Positions 43,181 through 43,521 of a DNA stretch of 43,521 nucleotides are shown one piece after another. Position numbers and translations under genes: made by a program. The notes beneath the pieces are model-generated. The model searched no databases, was not told the origin of the DNA, and saw only the letters and a program-made list of their open reading frames with translations. The DNA is taken from the NCBI GenBank assembly GCA_029975415.1, contig JARKPE010000118.1:1-43521 (forward strand). The letters run 5' to 3'. The stretch's first letter is position 1, and each line of letters begins with the position of its first letter. Source of the DNA: Dysgonamonadaceae bacterium (lineage in GTDB: Bacteria > Bacteroidota > Bacteroidia > Bacteroidales > Dysgonomonadaceae).

Positions 43181-43357
43181 AAATAAGTGATATGAGTAAT
43201 GATTCTTATGTCTGTTTCCATATTCTTTGTGTTCGTCCTACTTCAAAGAGAAATTTCAAAATTCAATTTTTCGCTGCTGCCGCACGATTGCAGCGTATGG
43301 CAAGTAGACATTTCCTTATTTTTTTAAAATATTAAAATTGCATTGATGTCCAATCCC
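43181..43357. other. gene-free stretch before the tandem array
   Basis: AT-rich. A six-pair hairpin CGCTGC/GCAGCG at 43272-43277 and 43290-43295. It should contain the promoter of the minus-strand operon, but no clear TAnnTTTG match was found. Confidence 0.35.
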
Positions 43358-43521
43358 TTCGAAGTGTGCCGAAAACACTTCCGAGTGTCGGAAAGTCTCT
43401 TCGGAGTGTCTCCGAGTTACTTCGGAGTGTCATGGAGAGACTCCGGAGTGACTCACAGTCTCTTAGGAGTGTCTCGGACTCACTATGGAGTGTCATGAAC
43501 ACACTCGCAAGTGTCTTTTTG
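43358..43521. repeat. degenerate tandem array of 21-base units
   Basis: Seven full units and one partial begin at 43358, 43379, 43400, 43421, 43442, 43463, 43484 and 43505, with exactly 21 bases each and no indel. AGTG at positions 6-9 is present in all eight. The consensus first half is TTCGGAGTGTC; the second half is looser and often looks like another copy (for example CCGAGTTAC), giving a sub-period of 10/11. It runs past the right edge of the window. Not a CRISPR (no spacers) and not coding in an obvious way. Confidence 0.8.

Follow-up and report, generated by a model that had tools for sequence, protein, structure and literature searches.

A tandem array of palindromic 21-base units was found at the end of a 43,521-nucleotide contig of a Dysgonamonadaceae bacterium, the whole of which constitutes the window analyzed here, and arrays of the same pitch recur downstream of the gene of one orphan protein family. 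Gene and array together form a real and strongly supported module, in which the array is linked to the gene, keeps an exact pitch, is built of palindromic units, and turns its sequence over fast. The array in the window is read as the 3′ half of this recurring chromosomal module and as a cooperative platform for a protein of two-fold symmetry, a reading to which about an even chance may be given.

The array at the contig end

The array occupies positions 43356–43521 (neither it nor the other window features below are assigned a strand) and comprises eight 21-base units, or 7.9 units in length, which follow one another in strict phase without any indel, the last of them (43503–43521) being truncated by the contig end. 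The identity between bases 21 and 42 positions apart amounted to 0.636 and 0.615, versus 0.253 (sd 0.04) in first-order Markov resamples, none of 5000 of which reached the observed value at either lag, and sliding windows of 164 bases revealed the array as the extreme of the contig at both lags, confirming the eight indel-free units described in the initial annotation. Its statement that AGTG is kept throughout was equally borne out: with units counted from 43356, AGTG is located at unit positions 8–11 in 8/8 units, and CT at positions 2–3, four bases ahead of it, in 8/8 as well. As both are parts of CACTNNNNAGTG, the invariant columns sit in a palindrome, the outer left letters of which are looser (A at position 1 in 5/8 units and C at position 21 in 5/7). 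An example of this core, CACTNNNNAGTG, is found at 43376–43387, where the last base of unit 1 joins the first eleven of unit 2; CT and AGTG recur from there at 21-base steps in all eight units, and the outer CA only in most.

Over the entire array, the best axis of dyad symmetry is 0.602 complementary, which was equaled by 1/400 column-permuted arrays. The initial annotation mentioned neither this palindromy nor the linked gene, nor the terminator-like hairpin that lies between that gene and the array. The direct sub-period of 10.5 bases that had been proposed is weak here, where identities of 0.331 at lag 10 and 0.320 at lag 11 were reached by 135 and 250 of 5000 resamples and are surpassed elsewhere in the contig, where values rise to 0.396 and 0.392. 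Across a set of 64 related arrays, both lags stand at background, 0.245. What is general to the class is period 21 together with the dyad, not a 10.5-base direct sub-period.

The search for further arrays in the window's own genome disclosed nothing beyond chance, with one extra 15-base match at E 1; a pattern search of this genome gave 45 forward and 39 reverse matches versus 32 and 36 for the reversed control, and 3/3 of the zero-mismatch and 3/4 of the one-mismatch matches were the array itself. When the array DNA was compared with 101 genomes, four matched, namely the window's own genome (G000), G001 of the same genus, G024 of the same family, and G099, in which a 23-base match stands alone and no tandem repeat was found around it. 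The counterpart in G001 (L028 8070–8363) runs on to 14 units in phase and starts approximately 20 bases past the stop codon of a 158-aa gene on the minus strand (L028 8385–8861), while G024 harbors an array remnant of about 2.5 units behind the same 158-aa gene. The phase is accordingly kept in further units, and the array DNA is present in relatives of the same genus and family, which upholds the phased array first described. In alignment, the left flank at 43272–43355 is common to the window and G024, its last ~30 bases are also common to G001, and the three genomes differ further left. The window's genome, 83.85% complete, yielded no copy of the 158-aa gene as far as it is assembled, and because the contig ends inside the array, the gene probably lies just beyond that end. 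The arrays of G000 and G001 differ, ungapped, at 39/166 positions, and the last two G000 units each show fewer mismatches to the G001 unit one step earlier (5 and 5, counted by eye, versus 8 and 9), suggesting that one whole unit has likely been gained or lost between them.

Several other elements were noted around the G001 locus. A second array with period 11 and nine TTGCCTTGGAG-like copies lies at L028 4575–4694 with no orphan gene beside it, shortly after a gene that by our reading resembles hydF. Matches to group II intron D1–D4 occur near the array at L028 5602–5905, and L028 9805–11403, near the orphan gene, encodes a protein with a MACPF domain and a ricin-type lectin match below threshold.

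Linkage between the array and an orphan gene

A total of 140 distinct genes with a stop codon were gathered via the protein and not via the repeat, only L028 and L029 being reached through the array; the flank counts leave out four loci duplicating others and three genes without a stop, and close paralogues are counted singly. With periods from 12 to 40, the best period in the 133 3′ flanks of at least 150 bp was 21 in 79, 22 in 2, 15 in 1, 20 in 1, and none in 50, whereas the 135 5′ flanks gave 21 in 4 (L058, L128, L177, and L180) and none in 131. By the cut-off used, 50/133 genes are therefore without an array, one strong 21-base array (L079) being lost among these 50 by scoring simple-sequence matches as none. 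A first pass, which employed a different score and kept the four duplicates, gave 21 or 42 in 62/96 3′ flanks, 44 in 1, and 8 in 1, and in the 5′ flanks 21 in 1, 10 in 2, and 8 in 1. In a sample that was taken from the phylum survey on the basis of the protein (48/51 matches, three fragments being left out), the lag-21 score was at least 20 in 22/48 cases downstream and 4/48 upstream, at least L165 downstream and L168 upstream being simple sequence.

The distribution was also followed along whole loci. Across 77 loci (587,787 bp), 52 lag-21 segments fell within the 900-bp 3′ zones (60,606 bp) and five elsewhere, including three coding segments (L102, L059, and L061), a simple-sequence-like one (L117), and, in L058, a true array just ahead of the gene on its 5′ side. 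Apart from 21 and 42, no lag in the range 12–49 yielded more than three segments. It might be supposed that a host protein uses the array as its site, or that the array is an element of general DNA mechanics (an insulator, a back-up terminator, or a nucleoid or supercoil element), with the linked gene co-traveling and not binding. The placement of 52/57 lag-21 segments in the 3′ zone of one gene family, 10% of the bases, counts against this explanation, since no preference for a single orphan gene would be expected of a general element, and it is considered unlikely, even with the acidity of the linked protein, the faster drift of the motif than of the protein, the position of the array past a terminator-like hairpin, and the occurrence in genome G429 of non-coding arrays of 21 and 22 bases that do not adjoin the gene speaking for it.

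Within 1.6 Mb of G429, five lag-21 segments were detected: the orphan family's own array, one non-coding segment (1365083–1365239), and three that fall into open stretches, two of these being long (333 and 564 codons) and the third measuring 159 codons (411202–411425). Lag 22 accounts for three more segments, of which two look palindromic by eye, and the remaining lags between 15 and 30 for four, including two at 27. As the orphan gene does not adjoin the non-coding 21/22-base arrays of G429, two-turn arrays may constitute a broader class, whose most regular members would be those linked to the gene. The 22-base palindromic arrays were located at about 9876–10007 of L227 (G429 929876–930007), near a gene that from its translation is presumably GIY-YIG-like, and at about 5258–5398 of L222 (G429 825258–825398), near one read in the same manner as presumably Y1-transposase-like.

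Gene and array are mostly separated by a terminator-like hairpin with a T-run, which was found in 43/59 gene–array gaps, versus 1.0 in mononucleotide shuffles; this count covers gaps of 35–350 bp, 22/81 arrays with shorter or longer gaps being left out, and the gap is below 30 bp in 16/81 arrays. In most measured gaps, the array thus lies past the hairpin. The promoter motif TAnnTTTG precedes the gene in 31/137 cases (7.8 expected) and occurs in the gene–array gap in 1/62 (5.8 expected).

Individual loci depart from the common arrangement. L085 contains an additional, complete orphan gene (1742–2231), the 3′ flank of which has no array, about 3 kb from a copy having one, and in L061 a frameshift or an error interrupts the orphan gene, with the array being kept. 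The genes of L087, L091, and L097, which come from one bin labeled Planctomycetaceae, are 88–89% identical in DNA and are followed by different arrays, and their alignment is lost 20–30 bases ahead of the stop, as though tail and array had been exchanged jointly. Like the window, the contigs of L085, L099, L100, L106, L116, and L129 end less than 200 bp past the stop of the orphan gene. Such arrays are probably under-counted in draft genomes, because contigs end near them as if short-read assembly broke there.

Pitch, symmetry, and sequence turnover

Strict spacing with freely changing letters is a general rule in dozens of loci. The consensus units differ between most loci, and their similarity amounts to 15.4/21 for protein pairs above 80% identity, 10.9 for those at 65–80%, and 9.8 for shuffles; among protein pairs 30–80% identical, 4.5–15.6% still reach 14/21, which none of 600 shuffles does, and CTCCGA-like centers and A-tracts are enriched among the units. 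Self-complementarity of at least 16/21 was observed in 19/64 consensus units (0.54 expected by shuffling) and of at least 14/21 in 39/64 (5.0 expected), some of the 64 units coming from close paralogues. The orthologous 181-bp arrays of L059 and L061, which belong to two Solitalea species, differ by 13 substitutions and no indel. Arrays of 22 bases occur in three paralogues of one genome and weakly in L048, and the pitch therefore corresponds to two turns and not to seven codons. The initial annotation had taken strict length with loose sequence as a sign of helical phasing for a cooperative DNA-binding protein; the former holds as the general rule just described, while cooperative protein binding is what we infer from it.

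Fast turnover would likewise accord with a selfish or neutral satellite, in which slippage or recombination spreads and homogenizes the unit and the 21 bp are set by amplification, with no binding function. Edge units that look more diverged than inner ones in several arrays (by eye), the step of one unit that likely separates G000 from G001 (by eye), a patchy occurrence (30/392 phylum genomes, with 1–5 matches), and the paralogues L085/L115, L094/L096, and L087/L091, which have a short 5′ stretch, the gene, and the array in common and little outside, point in the same direction. Such a satellite is nevertheless quite unlikely in view of the many lineages that keep the same pitch with different letters, the dyad symmetry of the units, the lack of any indel beside the 13 substitutions of the Solitalea arrays, and the purifying selection on the gene.

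The orphan gene family

The orphan gene is carried by 13/150 relatives and by 30/392 genomes of the phylum, with one to five matches each. A genome-contig scan confirmed 273 relatives of the protein, the best 80 of which were kept, corresponding to 79 loci with 60 record labels of Bacteroidota and 19 others (Spirochaetes or Treponema, Verrucomicrobia, Planctomycetaceae, and Azoarcus or Rubrivivax); most of these 19 are metagenome bins and possibly misassigned, and 13 of them appear in the array list, including L080, which is simple-sequence-like with period 8.

No Pfam or NCBIfam family is common to the members: over 70 members, Pfam gave one stray match only (APP1_cat in 1/70), NCBIfam none, and PADLOC matches in single members only, and the one member scanned against PHROGs gave only a weak match (E 0.03). 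Solved sequences gave no relative, the best match being PrgI at E 0.18. The AF2 model is confident (pLDDT 91.2, pTM 0.71) and all-helical without any strand, with a single helix spanning residues 73–127 and a low-confidence tail. Foldseek returned no known fold at E ≤ 0.001, no viral fold matched the protein at the same threshold, and the best Z of VIA-align 2 among 199 chains was 5.8, in a range that is common for long helices according to the tool. The proteins are acidic, with a median pI of 5.5 and a net charge of −3 over 80 members, only the C-terminal 22 residues carrying +2. A dN/dS of 0.043–0.234 in nine pairs indicates that the gene is under purifying selection.

Among 777 neighboring ORFs, no neighbor gene is common to most loci; the largest non-family clusters cover 12, 9, and 6 loci versus 129 for the family cluster, and the 12-locus cluster presumably resembles generic two-component sensors. 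The next gene lies on the plus strand in 73 cases and on the minus strand in 48. A phage origin was rejected, given that 0/43 pattern stretches in viral contigs encode a relative of the orphan protein and no phage record matched one member used as query. A plasmid search yielded one partial match to the protein, in Candidatus Thiodictyon syntrophicum, where no such array was seen by eye in the 3′ flank.

The array as DNA, RNA, or peptide

Since 21 bases equal seven codons and the window array itself has open frames on both strands, it might be imagined that the array codes for a heptad-repeat peptide. Open frames, however, number 1.31/6 per array versus 1.29 in column-permuted arrays, 27/64 arrays are without any open frame, and 22-base arrays exist, which leaves this explanation scarcely any probability; for the array class, peptide coding was rejected on account of the arrays without an open frame. 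The array class is non-coding, and its 22-base variant is two turns and not a multiple of three, which, for the class, disposes of the coding repeat protein that had been considered at the outset. The minus-strand peptide of the window matches chain 8qkd_A at E 6e-4, as heptad-like text may; this chain, sc-CC-5-24, is by its name presumably a designed coiled coil.

A transcript of repeated hairpins, like the repeats of type III toxin–antitoxin systems, is another conceivable form of action, with which two results would be compatible: the window array folds as RNA at −64.8 kcal/mol, and G-T mismatches slightly outnumber A-C mismatches on the gene strand (787 versus 686). This mismatch bias is only 32 to 23 when counted by array, and no compensatory change peculiar to neighboring positions was found in 45/61 arrays, those of at least 100 bp with a clear axis, in which excess complementarity was 0.016 at 1–6 nt and 0.0175 at 32–41 nt. 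Furthermore, the terminator-like hairpin precedes the array, the promoter motif is found in 1/62 gaps, and Rfam gave no match over an array in 12 sources, so that action as RNA appears highly improbable. With open frames at chance, no local covariation, and a hairpin before the array, the array is most simply regarded as a double-stranded DNA element outside the mRNA of the gene.

Proposed mode of action

In the module, a gene for an orphan all-helical protein of ~158 aa is followed, usually after a terminator-like hairpin, by about 3 to 23 head-to-tail imperfect palindromes with a pitch of 21 (rarely 22) bp. The array would work as double-stranded DNA, each palindrome binding one protein of two-fold symmetry, and the two-turn pitch would set all dimers on one DNA face, thereby allowing cooperative binding and a nucleoprotein filament. 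Whole units appear to be gained and lost, which would let the sequence drift fast with pitch and symmetry kept. The complex may serve copy control, silencing, anchoring, or the spread of the module. The idea of a cooperative platform is suggested by geometry, as a two-turn pitch combined with a dyad would suit symmetric dimers stacked on one face, and by analogy, as iteron initiators and ParR/parC follow the same principle: a half-turn offset between two iterons abolishes the cooperativity of Rep binding, as stated in part of the text of PMC4980987, and dimers of ParR assemble into a helical array on the repeats of parC, as stated in part of that of PMC5016525.

The binder would be the protein of the linked gene or else a host protein, the former being a possible candidate with somewhat less than an even chance. 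Its acidic character and its model without a strand, which leaves no ribbon-helix-helix or winged helix, are unfavorable to it, and since motif similarity is near background below 80% protein identity, sequence reading by the linked protein would be odd. Autoregulation via the array motif in the gene's promoter was examined and rejected, with a rank of at most 0.05 in 5/57 cases (about 2.9 expected) and a mean rank of 0.46. Acidity, missing strands, the lack of a clear promoter motif, and fast motif drift speak against sequence-specific binding by the linked protein, and a linked protein that reads pitch and symmetry rather than letters would fit. It is tentatively proposed, as a rather doubtful extension, that an undescribed nucleoprotein module is at hand, in which the proteins of an orphan helical family gather on a palindromic two-turn array of their own, located directly behind the terminator of their gene, and exert selection for it, each copy having its own unit sequence and being read by pitch and symmetry, not by letters.

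A length kept to the base while the letters turn over, repeatedly behind the same orphan gene, represents a natural experiment on selection, exposing what selection sees when DNA sequence is free, namely pitch and symmetry. The array linkage also provides a first handle on a protein family without a shared Pfam or NCBIfam family or a solved relative by sequence or fold.

Comparison with known systems

The gene–array architecture fails the tests for the known kinds of repeat systems, and as far as searches of the open-licence PMC literature go, which showed no description of such a gene–array module, it appears to be undescribed, with the function proposed above.

Prokaryotic satellites are tandem repeats of 10–200 nt in at least four copies (Subirana and Messeguer 2019, PMC6749651, in part of its text), and in this broad sense, judged by unit length and copy number, the arrays with at least four repeats belong to them. 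Unit lengths in multiples of 3 are taken there as likely coding, and the same part of PMC6749651 holds no gene-linked 21-base palindromic arrays. Unique spacers as in CRISPR are lacking, the units being contiguous in 13 arrays and in the window, and a REP/REPIN system with RAYT is disfavored by a Pfam scan of 70 members without any Y1-type transposase.

In type III toxin–antitoxin systems (ToxIN), a gene of about 160–170 aa stands beside a tandem array, and the module resembles them in a similar-sized gene adjoining such an array. It differs from these systems, the repeats of which lie 5′ of the toxin gene and are transcribed with it, in that the array lies 3′, mostly past a terminator-like hairpin (43/59 gaps), and has no local RNA covariation. 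As regards a toxin of the ToxN endoribonuclease fold, Foldseek gave no match at E ≤ 0.001, and matches from PADLOC were confined to single members.

For ParR/parC and TubR/tubC, part of PMC5016525 describes one dimer on each repeat and a nucleoprotein array of helical form, which the module would have in common with them. Unlike ParR/parC and TubR/tubC, the loci have no neighbor gene common to most of them, the array is 3′ and not an upstream centromere (period 21 downstream in 79/133, upstream in 4/135), and the strands that a ribbon-helix-helix or winged-helix protein would have are missing from the model. No partition motor ATPase/GTPase gene recurs among the 777 neighboring ORFs, on contigs that are often short, with a motor elsewhere being possible.

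Plasmid P1 has an iteron array 3′ of repA. Compared with plasmid iterons, the arrays described here are mostly chromosomal as far as seen, their units are palindromic, and their sequence differs in most copies; moreover, no Rep family was found in 70 members that would place a winged-helix Rep initiator beside the repeats, and the AF2 model is without a strand. What the module has in common with iterons is short repeats (17–22 bp in iterons) adjoining a gene and a helically phased pitch, with a best period of 21 or 22 in 81/133 3′ flanks, just as helical position governs the cooperativity of iterons according to part of PMC4980987.
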